Below, in pieces: positions 19,301 through 27,321 of a stretch of DNA of 64,000 bases. The position numbers were made by a program, and so were the translations under genes. The stretch is from Clavibacter californiensis (GTDB lineage: Bacteria; Actinomycetota; Actinomycetes; Actinomycetales; Microbacteriaceae). Positions within the stretch are counted from its first letter, which is position 1. Each line of letters begins with the position of its first letter. The notes beneath the pieces were generated by a model, which saw only the letters and a list, made by a program, of their open reading frames with translations, had not been told where the DNA came from and searched no databases. The stretch is taken from the NCBI RefSeq assembly GCF_021952865.1, contig NZ_CP040792.1, forward strand, positions 1,302,001 through 1,366,000, in the 5' to 3' direction.

Positions 19301-19466
19301 AAGCGAGTGCGTGCTCTGCGCACGGGCAGACCAGTGCCCCGCAGTGTTGTCCGCTCCGCGACCGGATGAAAGCCTCATAAGACCGTGGGAGTGGTGGGGG
19401 CCGCCCCGTGGTGACGCACGGCCGCGTCCACGAGCGCGGCCGGCCATGCAATCGAGGGGAACGCAG

Positions 19467-22400
19467 ATGGCACTACACATGCCCAGCCGCAGAAGCAGGC
19501 TGGCGACCGCGACGGCCTTCGGGCTCGCCGCGGCGATCGTCGCATTCGGGGGCACCGCGCCCGCGAACGCCGAACCGGGGGACACGGCGGAAGCTGAGGG
19601 CCGATTCCTGACCCTGACGAACGTCCCGCAGGTGATCGCCCTCGATGGCGCGTACACCTCCTACGGACCCGGCGACACCGCCGCGCAGGTGGAGGACGCG
19701 CCCCTGGACGTGGACGTCCTGAACGGGCTCGCGAACGCGCAGCTCTCCGCTGGCGTCACCCTCGGCTCCCTCCTCGACCTGGACCAGGCCGCATCGGCCG
19801 GCGTGCTCCAGCAATACGCGTCCGCGGGACCGGCCGGCGCCACGGGCGCGGCAGGAGCCGTCTCGGACAGCGGCGCCATCACGGTCGGCGCCGGCGGCGG
19901 CGGACAGCAGACGGTCATCGACCTCGGCTCCACCATCGCCTCGATCGGTGCGCAGAACACCCTCTCCGACCTCTCGCTGCGCTTCGGCGCCATCTCCTCC
20001 ACCGTCACCTCGACGGGCACGGGGACGCCCGCCTCGGACTACGACATCGCGTCGGCCGAGGCCGTGCTCACGAGCCCGCTCGTCGCGCAGATCAGCTCGC
20101 GGCTCACCACGGCCGTGAACGGGATCGCGCCCGGCATCGCCGGATCGGTCGACGTCTCGGCCGCCACGGGGCCGCTCCTCGAGGGCATCCTCGGGGAGAA
20201 CCTCGTCACGAGCGTCCTGCGGGTCGGCACCCCCACCGTCGTCGCCACGGCGAACGTCAACACGGCAGCCGTGGTGAACGCCGCGCTCGCGCAGCCCCTC
20301 ACCAACGCCGACGGGACGGTCTCGATCGACGTCTCGGCCGGCACGATCACGGTCGACCTCGACCGGATCCAGGCGCTCAACGACCGCCCGGCCGGCACCT
20401 CGGTCCTGTCATCGGAGCTGCTCGCGGGCGTCGTCGACTCCGCGATCACGAACATCTTCACGGAGGTGCTGCCGAACCGCCTGGTGACCGCGCTCCGCAC
20501 CTCCACCACGGTGAACGTCGCGGTCACCGCGCCGCTCACGACGGGGCTGCTCAATGCCAACGCCGGCACGCTCGGCGTGGACGTCAACCTGTCGCTCGAC
20601 CGCCTCCTCGGCGGCACGACGGGCACGGCGCCCACGATCAGCCTCGCCCGGACCAACCTGATCGGTCTCACGGTCAACCTGACGACCCTCGCGCCGCTGT
20701 TCGACGACCTCGTGACCGGGCTCCTCGGCTCCAACGCCGACACCGACCTGCTGCCGGCCATCGGCACCGCGCTGACCGGCGTCAGCACGGGGGTCATCAC
20801 CGCGCTCGCCCCGGCCTTCCCGGTCGTCGACCAGGTGGTGCGCCTCACGGTCAACGAGCAGGCGCCGGACGCCTTCATCGACGAGGACGGCGTCGACGCC
20901 GGATCCTCGTCGGTGACCGCCCTCCGCGTGCGGCTGCTCGGGAACGGCGGGCCGACCGTCGACCTGGCCCGCTCGACCGTGCGTGCCGTGCCGGCCCCCG
21001 TCGCCGACGACGTGACCATCACGACCCCGACGCCGAACCAGGTGATCGAGCTGCCCGCCGGGCAGACGACCGTCGTGGTGCCCGTCACCGGCACCGCCGA
21101 CCCGGATGCCGAGGTCACGCTGACCGTCGGCGGCCAGACGGTCGGCCCGCAGCCGGTCGGCCCCGGGAACGCCTACACGCTCACGCCCCCCGCCCTCCCG
21201 GCGGGCACGTACACGGCCACGGTCACCCAGACGATCGACGGCCAGGCCGCGGGCTCGGCGACGGTGACCTTCACCGTCGCCCCGGCCGCCACCGGCATCA
21301 CGATCACGACGCCCACCGCTGGCCAGGTCTTCCTGACCACCGCGACGGACCCGACTGTCGACGTGCCCGTCGAGGGCGCAGCGGACGTCCGCGCCTCCGT
21401 GACCGTCTCGATCCCCGGCCAGACCGCGCAGACCGAGCTGGTCGGCACGGACGGCCGCTACGACGTGGTCTTCGCCGACCTCCCGGTCGGCACGTACACG
21501 GCGACGGCCACCCAGTCGATCGACGGCGTGGTCCGCGGAACCGAGACGGTCACCTTCACGGTGGGCGCCCCGGCAGTGGGGATCGCGATCGACTCGCCCA
21601 CCGACGACCAGGAGATCCCGAGCAGCGGGACCGGGCCGAACCCGACCGCTGACGTCCCCGTGACCGGATCCGCGGACCCCCGCGCCTCCGTGACGGTGAC
21701 GATCCCCGGACGGACGTCCCAGACGGACACGACGGTCACGAACGGCCGCTTCGACGTCCTGTTCCCGAACCTGCCCGTGGGCACCTACACGGCCACGGCG
21801 ACGCAGACGATCGGCGGAGTCGCGGTGGGGACGGACATGGTGACCTTCGTGGTCGGCGCGCCCGCCGAGGACGTGGTCATCGACACGCCGACCAACGGAC
21901 AGACGTTCACGATCCCCGCGGGCGGCACCACGACCGACGTGATCGTGAACGGCAGCGCGGATCCCCGTGCCACGGTGGTCATCTCCCTCCCGGGACGCGA
22001 CGACGTCACGCAGGTCGTCGGGGACGACGGCCGCTTCGAGACGACGTTCACCGGCCTGACGGCCGCGTCGTACGACGTGACCGTCACGCAGTCCATCGGC
22101 GGCGCGCCCGCCGGCTCGGACACCGCCTCCTTCACCGTCCAGATCGCAGGGATCGAGCAGGTCGTCATCGAGACGCCCGAGCCCGGCGACTTCATCCCGC
22201 TGGCCGCCGGCACCACGACGGTCGTCGTCCCGGTGACGGGAACGGCCGACCCGGCCGCGACCGTCACGCTGACCGTCGGCGGCACCACGACGGGCCCCGT
22301 GGAGGTGGACGACGACGGTGGCTTCACGCTGACGCCGCCTGCCCTCCCGGCGGGCACCTACACGGCCACCGTCACCCAGACCATCGGCGGGCAGCCGGTG

Positions 22401-24863
22401 GGATCCGACACCGTGACCTTCACCATCGGCGCTCCGGTGACCATCACGGCGCCGACCGCCGGCCAGGAGTACACGCTGCCCACCGGCGCGACCGGGGTCG
22501 ACGTGACCGTCTCCGGCCGGGCCGACCCGATCGGGACCGTCACGGTCACGATCACCGGGCGTACGCCCATCGAGGTCGAGGTGGGCGACGACGGCACCTA
22601 CGAGGCCACCTTCACGGGCGTCCCCGTCGGCTCCTACACCGCCACCGCCACCCAGACGATCGGCGGCGCAGCGGCAGGATCCGCCGACCCTGTGACCTTC
22701 ACCGTCACCGCCGGCGCTGCTGACGGCGGCACCGACGCAACCGCTGCCGTGGATGTCGACGGCGGCGCGGACGCGGCTGGTGCGGATGCGGCTGGGACGG
22801 ACGCGGCTGGAACGGATGCGGCTGGGACTGACGCGGCTGGTACGGACGCGGCTGGTACGGACGCGGCTGGTACGGACGCGGCTGGCACTGACGCGGCTGG
22901 CACTGACGCGGCTGGTACGGACGCTGCTGGGACAGACGCTGCCGGAACGGATGCGGCTGGAGCGGACGCTGCCGGAACCGACGCGGCTGGAACGGATGCC
23001 GCCGGAACTGACGCTGCTGGGACCGACGCTGCCGGGACCGACGCTGCCGGGACTGACGCTGCTGGGACGGACGCTGCCGGGACTGACGCTGCCGGTACGG
23101 ACGCTGCTGGGACGGACGCGGCTGGGACGGACGCGGCTGGTACGGACGCTGCTGGTACGGACGCTGCCGGAACCGACGCTGCCGGAACCGACGCTGCTGG
23201 AACGGACGCTGCCGGTACGGACGCTGCCGGAACCGACGCTGCCGGAACCGACGCTGCTGGGACGGACGCGGCTGGTACGGACGCTGCTGGGACGGACGCT
23301 GCCGGAACCGACGCGGCCGGAACCGACGCTGCTGGAACGGACGCTGCCGGTACGGACGCGGCTGGTACGGACGCTGCCGGAACCGACGCTGCCGGGACTG
23401 ACGCGGCTGGTACGGATGCGGCCGGAACGGACGCTGCCGGAACCGACGCTGCCGGGACTGACGCGGCTGGTACGGATGCGGCTGGTACGGACGCTGCCGG
23501 AACCGACGCTGCCGGAACCGACGCTGCTGGAACTGACGCTGCCGGGACTGACGCTGCCGGAACCGACGCTGCTGGAACTGACGCGGCTGGTACGGATGCG
23601 GCTGGTACGGATGCTGCCGGTGCGGACGCGGCTGGTACGGACGCTGCCGGGACTGACGCGGCTGGTACGGACGCTGCCGGGACTGACGCGGCTGGTACGG
23701 ACGCTGCCGGGACTGACGCGGCTGGTACGGACGCTGCCGGTACGGACGCTGCCGGAACCGACGCTGCCGGAACCGACGCTGCTGGAACTGACGCTGCCGG
23801 GACTGACGCTGCCGGAACCGACGCTGCCGGAACTGACGCGGCTGGTACGGATGCGGCTGGTACGGATGCGGCTGGTACGGATGCTGCCGGGACTGACGCG
23901 GCTGGTACGGACGCTGCTGGTACGGACGCTGCTGGTACGGACGCTGCTGGTACGGACGCTGCTGGTACGGACGCTGCTGGTACGGACGCTGCTGGTACGG
24001 ACGCTGCTGGTACGGACGCTGCTGGTACGGACGCGGCTGGTACGGACGCGGCTGGTACGGATGCTGCCGGGACTGACGCGGCCGGGACGGACGCTGCTGG
24101 AACTGACGCGGCTGGTACGGACGCTGCCGGAACGGACGCTGCCGGGACTGACGCTTCGGATGCTGCTGGAACGGATGCGACGGATGCTGCTGGGGCTGAC
24201 GCTTCGGACGCTGCCGGTACGGATGCGATGGATGCTGCTGGGGCTGACGCTTCGGACGCGGCCGGTACGGATGCGACGGATGCTGCTGGGGCTGACGCTT
24301 CGGACGCTGCCGGTACGGATGCGACGGATGCTGCTGGGGCTGACGCCTCCGACGCGGCCGGCGCCGATGCCAGCGACGCCAGCGATGGATCCACGGACGG
24401 CTCGGACGCTCCCACCCGGGCGACCGTCTCCCTTCCGGTGATCGTCCGCGGGACGGGCGTCGTCCAGGAGGTGACCGCCGAGAACTTCACTCCTGGCGAG
24501 ACGATCCTGGCGACGGTCAACTCCACGCCGATGCCGCTGGAGCCGAAGATCGCGGACGCGGACGGGCGGGCGACCTTCACCTTCCCGGTCGGTGCCGACT
24601 TCGAGCTCGGAGCGCACTCGGTCACGGTGACGGGTACGGAATCCGGCCCGGCCGACGAGATGCTCACGCAGTTCCAGGTGGTCGCCGCGACGGTCCCGGC
24701 CGGCCAGCCGGGCCCGGTGCTCGGCGGAGGCGGTTACGGCGGCGGGATCCTCCCGGTGACGGGCGGCGACGCCGACGGGCTGCTGCTGCTCGGCGGGATC
24801 GCGCTCCTGATGATGCTGACCGGCGCCGGTGCCCTGCACCGCAGCCGCAGCCGTCGGGTGTGA
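19467..24863 (+). CDS. Giant sortase-anchored surface protein with Ig-like repeats and a DAAGT stalk
   Basis: A 1798-residue cell-wall protein. Order: signal peptide (1-35, cut after APANA); a large N-terminal domain (about 36-510) resembling what is called choice-of-anchor G family; six Ig-like repeats of about 95 residues (about 514-1082), each running from an ITTPTxGQ-like strand to GTYTATxTQTIxG and TVTFTV; 92 tandem DAAG[TA] pentapeptides (1102-1561); a DASDAAGT-type octapeptide section (about 1562-1640); a C-terminal folded module; and LPVTG (1762-1766) with hydrophobic helix and basic tail. The ATG at 19467 has GAGGGGA 6 nt upstream; upstream in-frame codons are non-conserved. Likely an adhesin or stalk-borne surface protein; the ligand is unknown. 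No sortase gene is in the window. Confidence 0.9.
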   Translation: MALHMPSRRSRLATATAFGLAAAIVAFGGTAPANAEPGDTAEAEGRFLTLTNVPQVIALDGAYTSYGPGDTAAQVEDAPLDVDVLNGLANAQLSAGVTLGSLLDLDQAASAGVLQQYASAGPAGATGAAGAVSDSGAITVGAGGGGQQTVIDLGSTIASIGAQNTLSDLSLRFGAISSTVTSTGTGTPASDYDIASAEAVLTSPLVAQISSRLTTAVNGIAPGIAGSVDVSAATGPLLEGILGENLVTSVLRVGTPTVVATANVNTAAVVNAALAQPLTNADGTVSIDVSAGTITVDLDRIQALNDRPAGTSVLSSELLAGVVDSAITNIFTEVLPNRLVTALRTSTTVNVAVTAPLTTGLLNANAGTLGVDVNLSLDRLLGGTTGTAPTISLARTNLIGLTVNLTTLAPLFDDLVTGLLGSNADTDLLPAIGTALTGVSTGVITALAPAFPVVDQVVRLTVNEQAPDAFIDEDGVDAGSSSVTALRVRLLGNGGPTVDLARSTVRAVPAPVADDVTITTPTPNQVIELPAGQTTVVVPVTGTADPDAEVTLTVGGQTVGPQPVGPGNAYTLTPPALPAGTYTATVTQTIDGQAAGSATVTFTVAPAATGITITTPTAGQVFLTTATDPTVDVPVEGAADVRASVTVSIPGQTAQTELVGTDGRYDVVFADLPVGTYTATATQSIDGVVRGTETVTFTVGAPAVGIAIDSPTDDQEIPSSGTGPNPTADVPVTGSADPRASVTVTIPGRTSQTDTTVTNGRFDVLFPNLPVGTYTATATQTIGGVAVGTDMVTFVVGAPAEDVVIDTPTNGQTFTIPAGGTTTDVIVNGSADPRATVVISLPGRDDVTQVVGDDGRFETTFTGLTAASYDVTVTQSIGGAPAGSDTASFTVQIAGIEQVVIETPEPGDFIPLAAGTTTVVVPVTGTADPAATVTLTVGGTTTGPVEVDDDGGFTLTPPALPAGTYTATVTQTIGGQPVGSDTVTFTIGAPVTITAPTAGQEYTLPTGATGVDVTVSGRADPIGTVTVTITGRTPIEVEVGDDGTYEATFTGVPVGSYTATATQTIGGAAAGSADPVTFTVTAGAADGGTDATAAVDVDGGADAAGADAAGTDAAGTDAAGTDAAGTDAAGTDAAGTDAAGTDAAGTDAAGTDAAGTDAAGTDAAGADAAGTDAAGTDAAGTDAAGTDAAGTDAAGTDAAGTDAAGTDAAGTDAAGTDAAGTDAAGTDAAGTDAAGTDAAGTDAAGTDAAGTDAAGTDAAGTDAAGTDAAGTDAAGTDAAGTDAAGTDAAGTDAAGTDAAGTDAAGTDAAGTDAAGTDAAGTDAAGTDAAGTDAAGTDAAGTDAAGTDAAGTDAAGTDAAGTDAAGTDAAGTDAAGTDAAGTDAAGADAAGTDAAGTDAAGTDAAGTDAAGTDAAGTDAAGTDAAGTDAAGTDAAGTDAAGTDAAGTDAAGTDAAGTDAAGTDAAGTDAAGTDAAGTDAAGTDAAGTDAAGTDAAGTDAAGTDAAGTDAAGTDAAGTDAAGTDAAGTDAAGTDAAGTDAAGTDAAGTDAAGTDAAGTDAAGTDASDAAGTDATDAAGADASDAAGTDAMDAAGADASDAAGTDATDAAGADASDAAGTDATDAAGADASDAAGADASDASDGSTDGSDAPTRATVSLPVIVRGTGVVQEVTAENFTPGETILATVNSTPMPLEPKIADADGRATFTFPVGADFELGAHSVTVTGTESGPADEMLTQFQVVAATVPAGQPGPVLGGGGYGGGILPVTGGDADGLLLLGGIALLMMLTGAGALHRSRSRRV
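21006..22715 (+). repeat. Six tandem Ig-like domain repeats (about 285 bp each)
   Basis: Units begin near 21006, 21291, 21576, 21867, 22158 and 22434 with spacing 276-291 bp. Conserved landmarks are a TPT/SPT-x-x-Q start, a V-P-V-x-G-x-A-D-P strand, and a GTYTATATQT ending. Units 1 and 5 share longer nearly identical DNA at their ends, suggesting recombination or duplication. Confidence 0.8.
22770..24149 (+). repeat. Minisatellite: 92 tandem copies of a 15-bp unit coding DAAG[TA]
   Basis: The 1380-bp tract is exactly 92 units of 15 bp with no frame break. Third positions vary (GCG/GCT/GCC, GGT/GGG/GGA, ACG/ACT/ACC) while the encoded peptide is nearly constant (occasional A for T in the fifth position). 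A run of eight identical GACGCTGCTGGTACG units lies at 23910-24029, and 30-bp higher-order pairs recur near 23640-23730. Confidence 0.95.
24150..24388 (+). repeat. 24-bp repeat coding DA[ST/M]DAAG[TA]
   Basis: A second repeat register (DASDAAGTDATDAAGA...) follows the pentapeptide tract, coding eight-residue units built from the pentapeptide plus a DAS, DAT or DAM insert. It runs into DGSTDGSD before the C-terminal module. Confidence 0.8.
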
Positions 24864-24885
24864 TGCTCCGGCACTGAACACGGAA

Positions 24886-24926
24886 GGGGCGGGCGTCCCG
24901 GCAGATCCTGCCGGGACGTCCGCCCC
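24886..24926. terminator. Terminator of the surface-protein gene
   Basis: A 19-bp stem with one G:T pair (24886-24904 with 24908-24926, GGGGCGGGCGTCCCGGCAG-like) around a 3-nt loop, 22 nt after the stop. Confidence 0.75.
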
Positions 24927-25027: not shown

Positions 25028-25981
25028 ATGACCGACACGAAGCACGAGCACGACGCGGAGGCGGATCTCGAGGAGGCCACCGCCTCCCCGCAGCAGCCGG
25101 ATCCCGAGGATCCCGCGGACCCCGCGGATCCCGCGGATCCCGCGGACGAGCATCCCGACGACCACGAGACCGGCGCCCCGGGCGACGCGCCGTCGTCCCC
25201 CACGGGCACGACGCGCCCGTCCACGCCCCCCGGCCTCACCCGCGGCGCGCGCATCGGGACGGCCGTCGCCGCCGCCGCCATCGCGATCTACGTCGCCACC
25301 TCGATCCTCATGGTGGTGCCGCAGGGCGACGCCACCCGCGCGCTCACGGCCGCCGCGCGCCCCTACTTCAGCCAGCAGTGGAACGTGTTCGCCCCCTCCA
25401 TCCAGAAGACCAACCGCCACCTCGAGATGCAGGCGCAGTGGCGGGACGCGTCCGGGACCCTGGTCAAGAGCGACTGGGCCGACATCACCGGCGTCGAGTA
25501 CGCCGCGGGGGAGGGGACGCTGCAAGGATCCCGCACGGTGAAGCAGAGCGCCAACCTGCTCAAGACGTACACCGAGCGGTTCCAGACCCTCACGCCGGAG
25601 CAGAAGGCCATCGTGCAGGACACCTTCATCCGCCGCGCGGACACCGACTCGGGCTTCGCCGCGAAGTCGGACACGTCCCTCATCGAGCAGCTCACCGCGC
25701 TGGACGAGGGCAGCCAGGGCCGCGTGATCCGGCTGCTCCGAGCGGACTACGTGATGAAGGAGTTCACGACCTACTGGGCGACCGCCTGGTTCGGCCGCGA
25801 CATCGAGCGCGTGCGCTGGCGGGTCGTGACCGACAGGCCCAACGACTTCGCGCACCGGGACGACGCCACGCAGCAGTTCAGCCAGAACGTGCTCCCGTTC
25901 GGATGGCGGGAGGCGGACGACATCATCGATCCGCAGGCGCTCAGCGTCTACCAGGGAGTCATGGAGAGGTACGGACGATGA
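25028..25981 (+). CDS. DUF5819 family membrane-anchored protein
   Basis: A 317-residue protein with an acidic, Asp/Pro-rich cytoplasmic N-terminus (1-70, containing a DPA triplet repeat), one transmembrane helix (about 76-97) and an extracytoplasmic domain starting with an aromatic QQWNVFAPSIQKTNRHLEMQAQW motif. I recognise this as the DUF5819 family, function unknown. An AAGGGG lies 8 nt before the ATG. The stop overlaps the ATG of the HTTM gene (ATGA), so the two are translationally coupled, and DUF5819/HTTM pairing is a known actinobacterial association. Confidence 0.8.
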   Translation: MTDTKHEHDAEADLEEATASPQQPDPEDPADPADPADPADEHPDDHETGAPGDAPSSPTGTTRPSTPPGLTRGARIGTAVAAAAIAIYVATSILMVVPQGDATRALTAAARPYFSQQWNVFAPSIQKTNRHLEMQAQWRDASGTLVKSDWADITGVEYAAGEGTLQGSRTVKQSANLLKTYTERFQTLTPEQKAIVQDTFIRRADTDSGFAAKSDTSLIEQLTALDEGSQGRVIRLLRADYVMKEFTTYWATAWFGRDIERVRWRVVTDRPNDFAHRDDATQQFSQNVLPFGWREADDIIDPQALSVYQGVMERYGR

Positions 25982-27321
25982 GCGCGGATCAGCACGAGCC
26001 CGACCGGTCGACGGCCGAGAGCACCCCGGCGGGGCGCGCGAGCACGACCGCCTCCGCGAAGAAGCCGGCGAAGGCGACCACCGCGACGACGTCCACGAAG
26101 CCGAAGGCGCCGGCCGCGGGATCCTGGACCGGTCGCCACCATCCCCGCAACGCGTCGTCACGACCCCGCGGTGCCGTCGCGCGCCGGGCGTCCGGCGTCC
26201 GCGCCGCCCGCCTCCGGCAGATGCTCCAGGACCGCGAGCTCCTGACCGCGCTCCGCGACCCGCGAGGCTGGCCGCGCGGCATCGCGACGTGGATGACGGA
26301 GCGCGAGCACGCGACGTACAGCTTCGCGGCCTTCCGCATCACGATCGGCGCCGTGATCCTCATGGTGCTCGTGACGTGCTTCAGCGACCGCCACTACCTC
26401 TGGGGCGTCGGCGCCCGCTTCATCGACCCGGAGTCCACGCGCCGCGGGTGGCTGCCCCTGTTCACGGGCCTGTTCTCCAAGACCGACGCGACGCTCTTCG
26501 ACCTGGCCTACCTGCTCCTCGTGGTGCTGGCCGCCCTCTTCACGCTCGGCTGGCGCACGCGCATCGTGACGCCGTTCCTCCTGGTCTTCTGGGTCGGCCT
26601 GTCCACGAACAGCACGCTGCTCACGAACGGGGGCGACACCGTCCTGCGGCTCGTGCTGTTCTTCGCGCTCTTCGCCGACCTCTCGCGGCACTTCTCCATG
26701 GACGCCGCACGGCGTAGGCGGGCGGCGGTCACGCCGGCTGTCGGGACCGCGGGCCGGGCTCCGGTCGGCCTCGTGCAGGTCGCCCGTGCGCAGATCGACC
26801 GCATCCCGCGGCTGGTCCCCGTGCTCCTGCACAACACCGCGCTGGTGCTCTGCGCCTACCAGATCATGCTCGTCTACGTGAACTCGGCCCTCCTCAAGCT
26901 GCAGGGCGCGGAGTGGCGCGACGGGACCGCGACCTACTACTCGCTCATCCTCGACGGCTACCGCCCCTGGCCGTGGCTGAACGACCTCCTCGTGCAGTCG
27001 AGCCTCGGCATCGTGGTCGCGAGCTTCGTCGCCGTGACCTTCCAGGGCCTCTTCCCGCTCCTCATCCTGTGGCGTCCGACGCGGATCGTCGCGCTCGTCG
27101 CCATCACCGGCATGCACCTGATGATCGGGCTCCTGCTCGGACTCTGGCCGTTCTCGCTCGCGATGATCGCGCTCGACTTCCTCTTCATCCGGGACGCGAC
27201 CTGGCGCGAGGGGCGGGCGCTGATCGGGCGCTGGAGCGAGGACAGGCCGGACCGGATCCGGGCGGCGCACGCGCGTCGCTCCTCCCCAGCACCGGCAGCG
27301 GAGGTGCCGGCCGAGGCGTGA
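25978..27321 (+). CDS. HTTM domain membrane protein (vitamin K-dependent carboxylase-like)
   Basis: A 447-residue multi-pass protein. Residues 1-80 are a basic, Ala/Thr/Lys-rich, probably cytoplasmic extension; from about 109 (EREHATYSFAAFRITIGAVIL) it follows the HTTM pattern of horizontally arranged membrane helices related to vitamin K-dependent gamma-carboxylase. SAxLKLQGAEWRDGTATYYS is the family landmark in the middle. In bacteria the substrate is unknown and the carboxylase chemistry is unproven. Coupled to the DUF5819 gene; it sits directly after the surface-protein gene, which may or may not be a functional link. Confidence 0.85.
   Translation: MSADQHEPDRSTAESTPAGRASTTASAKKPAKATTATTSTKPKAPAAGSWTGRHHPRNASSRPRGAVARRASGVRAARLRQMLQDRELLTALRDPRGWPRGIATWMTEREHATYSFAAFRITIGAVILMVLVTCFSDRHYLWGVGARFIDPESTRRGWLPLFTGLFSKTDATLFDLAYLLLVVLAALFTLGWRTRIVTPFLLVFWVGLSTNSTLLTNGGDTVLRLVLFFALFADLSRHFSMDAARRRRAAVTPAVGTAGRAPVGLVQVARAQIDRIPRLVPVLLHNTALVLCAYQIMLVYVNSALLKLQGAEWRDGTATYYSLILDGYRPWPWLNDLLVQSSLGIVVASFVAVTFQGLFPLLILWRPTRIVALVAITGMHLMIGLLLGLWPFSLAMIALDFLFIRDATWREGRALIGRWSEDRPDRIRAAHARRSSPAPAAEVPAEA

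Follow-up and report, generated by a model that had tools for sequence, protein, structure and literature searches.

The subject of this study is a repeat-bearing surface-protein gene of Clavibacter californiensis, located in a 64,000-nucleotide stretch of contig NZ_CP040792.1 (positions 1,302,001 to 1,366,000 of the forward strand; assembly GCF_021952865.1), which we call the window and to which all coordinates refer. The window has a G+C content of 73%. Within the gene lies an in-frame minisatellite coding for 92 copies of the pentapeptide DAAG[TA], and downstream of it stand genes for a DUF5819 protein and an HTTM-domain protein (Table 1). The repeat is real; it represents, at this locus, a type of acidic stalk that evolves fast and belongs to a wall-protein neighbourhood met repeatedly. 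The most informative context of the tract is the DUF5819–HTTM pair, outside the interval 22770–24149 to which a preliminary description of this DNA referred.

The repeat tract and the protein that carries it

The tract measures 1380 bp, that is, exactly 92 units of 15 bp in a single frame and free of indels, as the preliminary description had stated; 89 of the unit peptides read DAAGT and three read DAAGA. Tandem Repeats Finder (TRF) places the array at 22768–24155 (period 15, 92.5 copies), with a score of 1495 that is the top value among the 36 rows returned for the window. There are 27 different nucleotide units among the 92 copies, and codon positions 1 and 2 are constant save for three units with G for A (Thr to Ala). 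Mean pairwise unit identity is 83% for DNA and 98.7% for protein. Third codon positions do differ among the units, but the earlier wording that they 'vary freely' is too strong, since they are strongly shifted towards low G+C at third positions (GC3), with Gly GGC found in 2/92 units, GCC for the first Ala in 1/92 and GCG for the second Ala in 0/92. A second in-frame array of period 24/48, coding for DA[ST]DAAG[AT], follows at 24132–24361. An assembly artefact, the danger to which the preliminary description had pointed, appears unlikely as judged from the assembly alone, because exact repeats within the tract reach just 119 bp (eight identical units in a row; 89 bp if non-overlapping) and the genome is assembled in two contigs, the one bearing the tract being 3.17 Mb long.

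Table 1. Features of the stalk locus in window coordinates
Feature	Position	Strand	Basis
Predicted surface protein with wall-anchor signal, 1798 amino acids	19467–24863	+	Open reading frame analysis; start shared with orthologues
Predicted signal peptide, 35 amino acids, boundary after ANA	19467–19571	+	By inspection
Choice-of-anchor G N-terminal domain	19572–20987	+	NF033766 E 1.1e-55, 189.6 bits, cut-off 45
Part of N domain with a possible resemblance to SPLUNC1/BPI (TULIP-like) in its model	20115–20768	+	Model fold comparison
Immunoglobulin (Ig)-like/prealbumin-like repeat array	20988–22700	+	Big_7, Big_3_5, SpaA above Pfam cut-offs; 291-bp tandem period
(DAAG[TA])92 stalk, 92 × 15-bp units	22770–24149	+	Unit count, TRF
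Second array, 24/48-bp units, DA[ST]DAAG[AT]	24150–24361	+	Near octapeptide unit of several sister species
Wall-proximal Ig-like domain	24414–24686	+	AlphaFold2 + Foldseek
LPVTG sorting signal, hydrophobic segment, basic tail	24750–24860	+	TIGR01167 19.4 bits, cut-off 15.9
Hairpin between stalk gene and DUF5819, possible terminator	24886–24926	+	Fold −49.8 kcal/mol, z −8.05
DUF5819 protein, 317 amino acids	25028–25981	+	PF19136 E 1e-21
HTTM-domain protein	25978–27321	+	PF05090 E 2.4e-9, 39.2 bits, cut-off 27.7

The longest open reading frame (ORF) holding the tract spans 19311–24863 (+), with 1850 codons from GTG 19311. The start codon is likely ATG 19467, which has GAGGGG directly 5′ of it and is matched by a MALHMP or MAIHMP start in 15/15 other complete orthologues. 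The choice-of-anchor G domain was missed when the whole protein was scanned and was seen once the repeats had been cut out. Its AlphaFold2 model has a predicted local distance difference test (pLDDT) score of 76.8 and a predicted template modelling score of 0.75; the fold comparison in Table 1 covered the families in the VIA-align list, and a search of the PDB with the domain as a single sequence gave no match. The wall-proximal domain is modelled with block-mean pLDDT values of 92–97 over residues 21–110, its PDB matches are mostly Ig-like folds (best Foldseek E 2.4e-5), and a Gly-rich linker joins it to the LPVTG motif.

The protein has the sequence features of an LPXTG sortase substrate, the signal peptide and membrane segment being judged by inspection, and would thus be anchored to the wall. 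Among 18 genus orthologues the sorting motif is LPVTG in 17 and LPITG in one, and the genome has two sortase genes (PF04203). For Clavibacter michiganensis, an excerpt of a review (PMC10501053) reports that blisters do not form unless sortase SrtA is present. The earlier view of the tract as a spacer between the Ig-like array and the wall anchor is supported and a spacer role for the acidic stalk is likely from its position and composition, except that a small Ig-like domain separates the stalk from the anchor. A 'rigid' stalk, as had also been proposed, is not supported, the unit having no Pro, a Gly at every fifth residue and one uncompensated Asp; it may well be extended.

Two side observations concern this gene and its kind. 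A reverse-strand open frame of 1490 amino acids (20409–24881, −) lies over the stalk gene, as is expected with repeats and high G+C. The genome also has a second choice-of-anchor G gene (locus L086, G000:C1:276500-282500), an 879-amino-acid frame with no stalk, near which a separate frame ends in LPRTG.

Stalk turnover across the genus

We have compared 18 Clavibacter genomes, one per species, where G000 is the genome of the window and 17 further loci were fetched. The C domain is present in all 18, as is an Asp-rich stalk at the same place, complete in 16 genomes and partial in G013 (Ns) and G016 (contig edge). The flanks are syntenic, with 84–94% nucleotide identity in blocks outside the gene and 74–85% in the DUF5819 block, the upstream side of G016 being cut by the contig edge. 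The unit itself is replaced from species to species. DAAGT arrays occur in just two genomes (G000 and G017), DATDAAGT-type units in G001, G002, G003, G004, G007, G008, G009, G011, G012 and part of G010, DAA/DGT triplets of period 9 in G006, and compound Asp-rich units of about 54 amino acids in G005 and of 75 in G014 and G015; the periods of the stalks without DAAGT arrays are 6, 8, 9, 24 or 54–75 amino acids, some unit assignments resting on counts instead of read sequence. What is kept is the position, the acidic small-residue composition (Asp 20–36%) and the scarcity of Lys/Arg (two or fewer per stalk). As far as these sequences tell, the constrained feature of the stalk is thus its composition and position, and the exact motif is not conserved.

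Outside the stalk the gene is a mosaic. In its N domain, G000 is 86–88% identical to seven species and 42–48% to the other eight (16 compared); the nearest Ig array is that of G017 (83%) and the nearest C domain that of G014 (78%). As a separate observation, the N domain, Ig array and C domain follow different species groupings (L021–L035). Module exchange at a fixed locus may well lie behind the mosaic gene.

Within one array the ratio of non-synonymous to synonymous differences between units (pN/pS) is 0.0105 in G000 and 0.0127 in G017, in line with the earlier suggestion of protein-level constraint on the tract; that part of the suggestion stands, although the DAAGT motif itself is not what is constrained. 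The synonymous differences (pS) between units are 0.57 (G000) and 0.59 (G017), higher than those between species in the rest of the gene (G000 against nine other species in the N, Ig and C parts: 0.22–0.38 for close alleles, up to 0.50 otherwise). Since the units are related by duplication, the pN/pS of an array is descriptive, and a small number of founding units that differed in their codons could also raise pS. The unit order is shared between the G000 and G017 arrays no more than in shuffles. There was no sign that neighbouring units are kept different on purpose (the lag-1 identity, 0.853, is the second highest of 24 lags), and block duplication within the array is weakly indicated at best, the longest repeated block (5 units) being equalled in 8/500 shuffles.

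We have also searched for the tract peptide in 299 genomes of the family, the best 10 or fewer candidates being scored in most genomes. Some match was present in 105/299 genomes; among the matches listed, identity of at least 85% was confined to G000 and G017 and no DAAGT relative was seen outside Clavibacter, while 16 other family loci inspected (L046–L061) had different repeats (for example, DAGTP, DPAGT or DEPGT) or nothing acidic. An initial scan of the genome contigs found no relative, and a search of a plasmid collection no match. Literature searches for a tandem-repeat LPXTG surface protein in Clavibacter and on 'choice-of-anchor G' found nothing, and among the matches listed for DAAGT none, by title, concerned a bacterial repeat stalk.

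That low-complexity matches are so common in the family, and that the motif turns over between species, would suit a minisatellite that is selfish or neutral, has no stalk function and is tolerated because the surface protein is permissive. We regard this explanation as very improbable, as pN/pS is about 0.01 within the array and a stalk stands at the same place in 18/18 genomes and also beside DUF5819–HTTM in other genera and families. An ordinary stalk of the periscope type, the copy number of which would shift fast between strains and tune the reach of the protein, is compatible with a spacer role and has a substantial, if less than even, chance of being the right description. It is favoured by the range of stalk length (211–1121 amino acids over 16 complete species genes), by the run of eight identical units, which points to recent local slippage, and by the tie between high repeat DNA identity and length change reported in an available portion of PMC8201768; the units, however, are 98.7% alike as protein yet 83% as DNA, which is less favourable to rapid length change.

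The 89 Thr residues of the tract raise a further alternative, a scaffold for O-glycosylation on Thr like that of the glycosylated staphylococcal serine–aspartate repeats, which SdgA and SdgB glycosylate according to excerpts of two reports (PMC8561734, PMC3794999). Thr nevertheless falls to 7–8% in the stalks of G005, G006, G014 and G015 while Asp persists, and such a scaffold role is in our view unlikely.

Gene neighbourhood and codon usage of the stalks

The DUF5819 gene starts 164 bp past the stalk gene, and its stop codon and the start codon of the HTTM gene overlap as ATGA; both genes are also present in the other 17/17 genus loci. Among 150 family genomes, choice_anch_G was found in 56, DUF5819 in 19 and both in 17 (co-occurrence, Fisher p 8e-7). 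In 13/17 genomes with both, the choice_anch_G match lies 0.9–8.3 kb upstream of DUF5819 on the same strand; in G067 the pair is upstream of choice_anch_G, and in G059, G114 and G130 the two are apart.

To contrast stalks by context, 11 loci near the pair were set against 21 away from it (20 hand-picked choice_anch_G genes and the own-genome paralogue), DUF5819 and HTTM having been looked for and not found in these 21 stretches. By the first metric, an acidic run of at least 60 amino acids, 8/11 near-pair genes and 0/21 others carried a stalk, the three misses being Ala-rich with Asp, Asn, Ser and Thr over 562–777 amino acids. After these misses had been read the metric was loosened, and a low-complexity stalk of at least 60 amino acids was then found in 14/14 genes near the pair (including three Clavibacter) and in 0/21 others (Fisher p 4e-10). 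The composition of the linked stalks varies, with 38% Glu in L099 and 11–13% Asp in L089–L091.

A wider test applied the loosened metric, unchanged, to every six-frame ORF of at least 150 amino acids in 25 further DUF5819 loci, made up of 8 family loci without an adjoining choice_anch_G and 17 loci from an order-wide search (16 of 18 genera), in which DUF5819 was found in 50/297 genomes. A stalk ORF was present in 14/25 of these loci against 0/20 control stretches (p 4e-5; 7/20 control genomes also contribute to the test set). All 14 share the strand of the pair, and the one in L125 lies downstream of the pair. Among the misses, inspection by eye showed stalk proteins directly upstream in L128 (GVEVD), L134 (DPEGT) and L138 (Ala/Asn/Asp), and L127 ends at a contig end. 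HTTM is present at 25/25 of these DUF5819 loci, and the two genes are paired on one strand (window 25028–27321, L089–L144).

Several points weigh against a link between stalk and pair. The second metric was loosened post hoc, after the data had been seen, and its p value is not corrected for kinship of the genomes. A sorting-signal-like tail (loose pattern) is present in only 13/21 comparison genes and lacking in 8, and is missing in 2/11 near-pair genes, of which one is truncated at the end of its contig. The contrast could thus in part be one between anchored and unanchored proteins, yet a stalk is found in 0/13 of the tailed comparison genes. No stalk gene stands upstream in 7/25 wider loci (L121, L124, L129, L133, L136, L139 and L141), meaning that the pair has other partners or contexts. 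Finally, because the hairpin at 24886–24926 is very stable, the stalk gene and DUF5819 may not share one transcript, although a scan for T-run terminators found none there (the hairpin has no T run). As an association read from gene order and composition, the link between stalk and DUF5819–HTTM is well supported.

The varied composition of the linked stalks bears on another possibility, that an Asp-rich stalk chiefly binds divalent cations (Ca2+), which would stiffen or cross-link the surface layer. Most genus stalks have an Asp at every 2–5 residues, and G010 carries DADGxVDADG runs, which favours it; the Glu-rich L099 and the acid-poorer L089–L091 speak against it and, to our knowledge, the DAAGT spacing fits no known Ca2+ loop, so that we hold it to be improbable.

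The low GC3 of the tract recurs in the other stalks of the genus. In the 16 complete genes GC3 drops from 0.92–0.97 outside the stalk to 0.50–0.88 inside it, and stalk values are below those of the remaining coding sequence in 18/18 genus genes and in 14/14 genes linked to the pair. Pooled over the 16 genes, T-ending codons rise in the stalk relative to elsewhere for Ala (GCT 43% vs 3.2%), Asp (GAT 30% vs 5%), Gly (GGT 35% vs 8%), Thr (ACT 10% vs 0.6%) and Val (GTT 2.1% vs 0.1%); of the A-ending codons GGA is up (13.7% vs 8.4%), GTA slightly up (1.1% vs 0.5%) and GCA down. For Asp, Ala, Gly and Thr, GC3 drops nearly stepwise with rising local repeat purity, and within single genes the purer stretches are lower in 14/15 testable cases. 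The T-rich third positions thus accompany repetition itself, against which it counts that GC3 is not lower in the purer stretches of G014 or in 3/14 wider stalks (higher in L123 and L125, equal in L135).

Acidic composition was rejected as the cause, as impure acidic stretches have the higher GC3 in 14/15 contrasts. Avoidance of mRNA structure was not supported by folding tests: the first 600 nt of the tract have a fold z of +2.1 as RNA (less folded than 99/100 shuffles) and of −1.95 as DNA (more folded), and over the 16 genes the mean z is −1.62 for 69 stalk pieces and −0.72 for 80 other pieces, raw fold energy per base being weaker in stalks (−0.435 vs −0.487), as lower G+C would give. Perhaps repeated DNA or RNA that is rich in G+C is selected against, or a C-to-T mutation bias goes with repeats. 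In other genera, unrelated repeats show the same direction in coding-looking frames; these frames are unverified and are not relied on.

Spider silk genes show a similar third-position bias in excerpts of three reports (PMC1885213, PMC3522626, PMC6627382), their Ala/Gly repeats avoiding GC-ending codons as the stalk does. In the available part of PMC6627382, Gly GGC makes up 2/160 in A. ventricosus PySp1, to be compared with 2/92 in the DAAGT tract, whereas black widow dragline silk, in that of PMC1885213, prefers A and then T endings; the stalk raises T, and A only for Gly and slightly for Val. The codon shift, in a stretch of 73% G+C, offers a bacterial test of a silk-like codon bias.

Proposed role and comparison with known systems

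Taken together, the tract is probably part of a polyanionic, wall-spanning stalk of a sortase-type wall protein, selected for charge, composition and length and served by DUF5819–HTTM. Interrupted by Gly, and negative with almost no positive residues, such a stalk would stay unfolded and be expanded through charge repulsion; it would cross the peptidoglycan and keep the choice-of-anchor G head away from the cell. If what is selected is the composition, charge and length of the stalk, any unit born by slippage should suffice as long as it is rich in Asp and small residues, and for this reason units of different length could swap between species while non-synonymous change within an array is near absent. 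The orthologous stalks thus form a natural series within the genus, separating what is kept (charge, small residues, position) from what is ignored (motif). The DUF5819–HTTM pair, which probably serves the stalk, may export, mature or chemically modify the stalked protein, and its link with acidic or Ala/Asp-rich stalks suggests concretely what the substrates of two membrane-type families might be. One of these families, HTTM, is distantly related to a medically important enzyme, the carboxylase of blood-clotting proteins.

This relationship emerges from profile comparison. The HTTM Pfam cut-off (27.7 bits) is exceeded by 5/5 homologues scanned, and a profile built from 16 HTTM proteins and searched against the PDB at E up to 5 matched 8 distinct sequences, all vitamin K-dependent gamma-carboxylase (GGCX), the best with E-values of 7.6e-4 (whole sequence) and 0.0027 (domain); the HTTM protein as a single sequence gave no match in the PDB, and DUF5819 no convincing relative there. 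Sites were mapped by the profile alignment and a 31-residue offset between the listed chains, in the numbering of the 758-residue chain. The equivalent of Lys218, which we take to be the catalytic base, is Lys in 54/54 HTTM loci (18 of them Clavibacter), and the next residue is Trp in all 54. The equivalent of His160, which presumably matters in the carboxylase, is Gly in 48/54 and Ser in 6/54, a difference from GGCX that argues against the HTTM protein being an unchanged carboxylase. From SdpB, another HTTM relative, the family differs in its scores with TIGR04033 (49.3–73.2 bits in four proteins scanned), below the cut-off of 178.4. A dedicated, quinone-using membrane enzyme related to gamma-carboxylase, modifying acidic side chains of adjoining wall-protein stalks (for example, by Glu/Asp carboxylation), would turn the stalks into a polyanionic brush with a high density of modified residues. 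Bacteria would then have their own counterpart to the modification of Gla proteins, and a class of substrates could be assigned to this branch of HTTM. We put this forward as a rather improbable proposal, and any particular chemistry of the pair on the stalk is a guess.

Among wall-protein stalks, the periscope proteins (SasG, Rib and Sgo_0707) resemble the present one in having a repetitive stalk of a length that differs between genomes, although most periscope stalks consist of folded domains, as far as the available portion of PMC8201768 describes them, where here the units have 5 amino acids. Within this protein, it is the Ig-like array that might count as a periscope stalk of the folded-domain kind. 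Other choice-of-anchor G (NF033766) proteins share the head domain, the stalk being missing in the 21 examined away from DUF5819–HTTM.

In the staphylococcal Sdr and Clf wall proteins, folded domains at the N terminus are followed by an acidic stalk of low complexity and then by an LPXTG signal. The stalk protein has the same order of folded N part, acidic stalk and LPXTG-type signal, and the analogy with serine–aspartate adhesin stalks drawn in the preliminary description is supported to this extent. It differs in that the DAAG[TA] unit uses Ala, Gly and Thr with no Ser, and is not a Ser–Asp dipeptide repeat. Scans of three protein pieces with Pfam and NCBIfam at E up to 1 found no fibrinogen-binding-type N2–N3 domains; in place of the staphylococcal arrangement, the Clavibacter protein combines a choice-of-anchor G N domain, a stalk motif that turns over between species and an Ig-like domain between the stalk and LPVTG.

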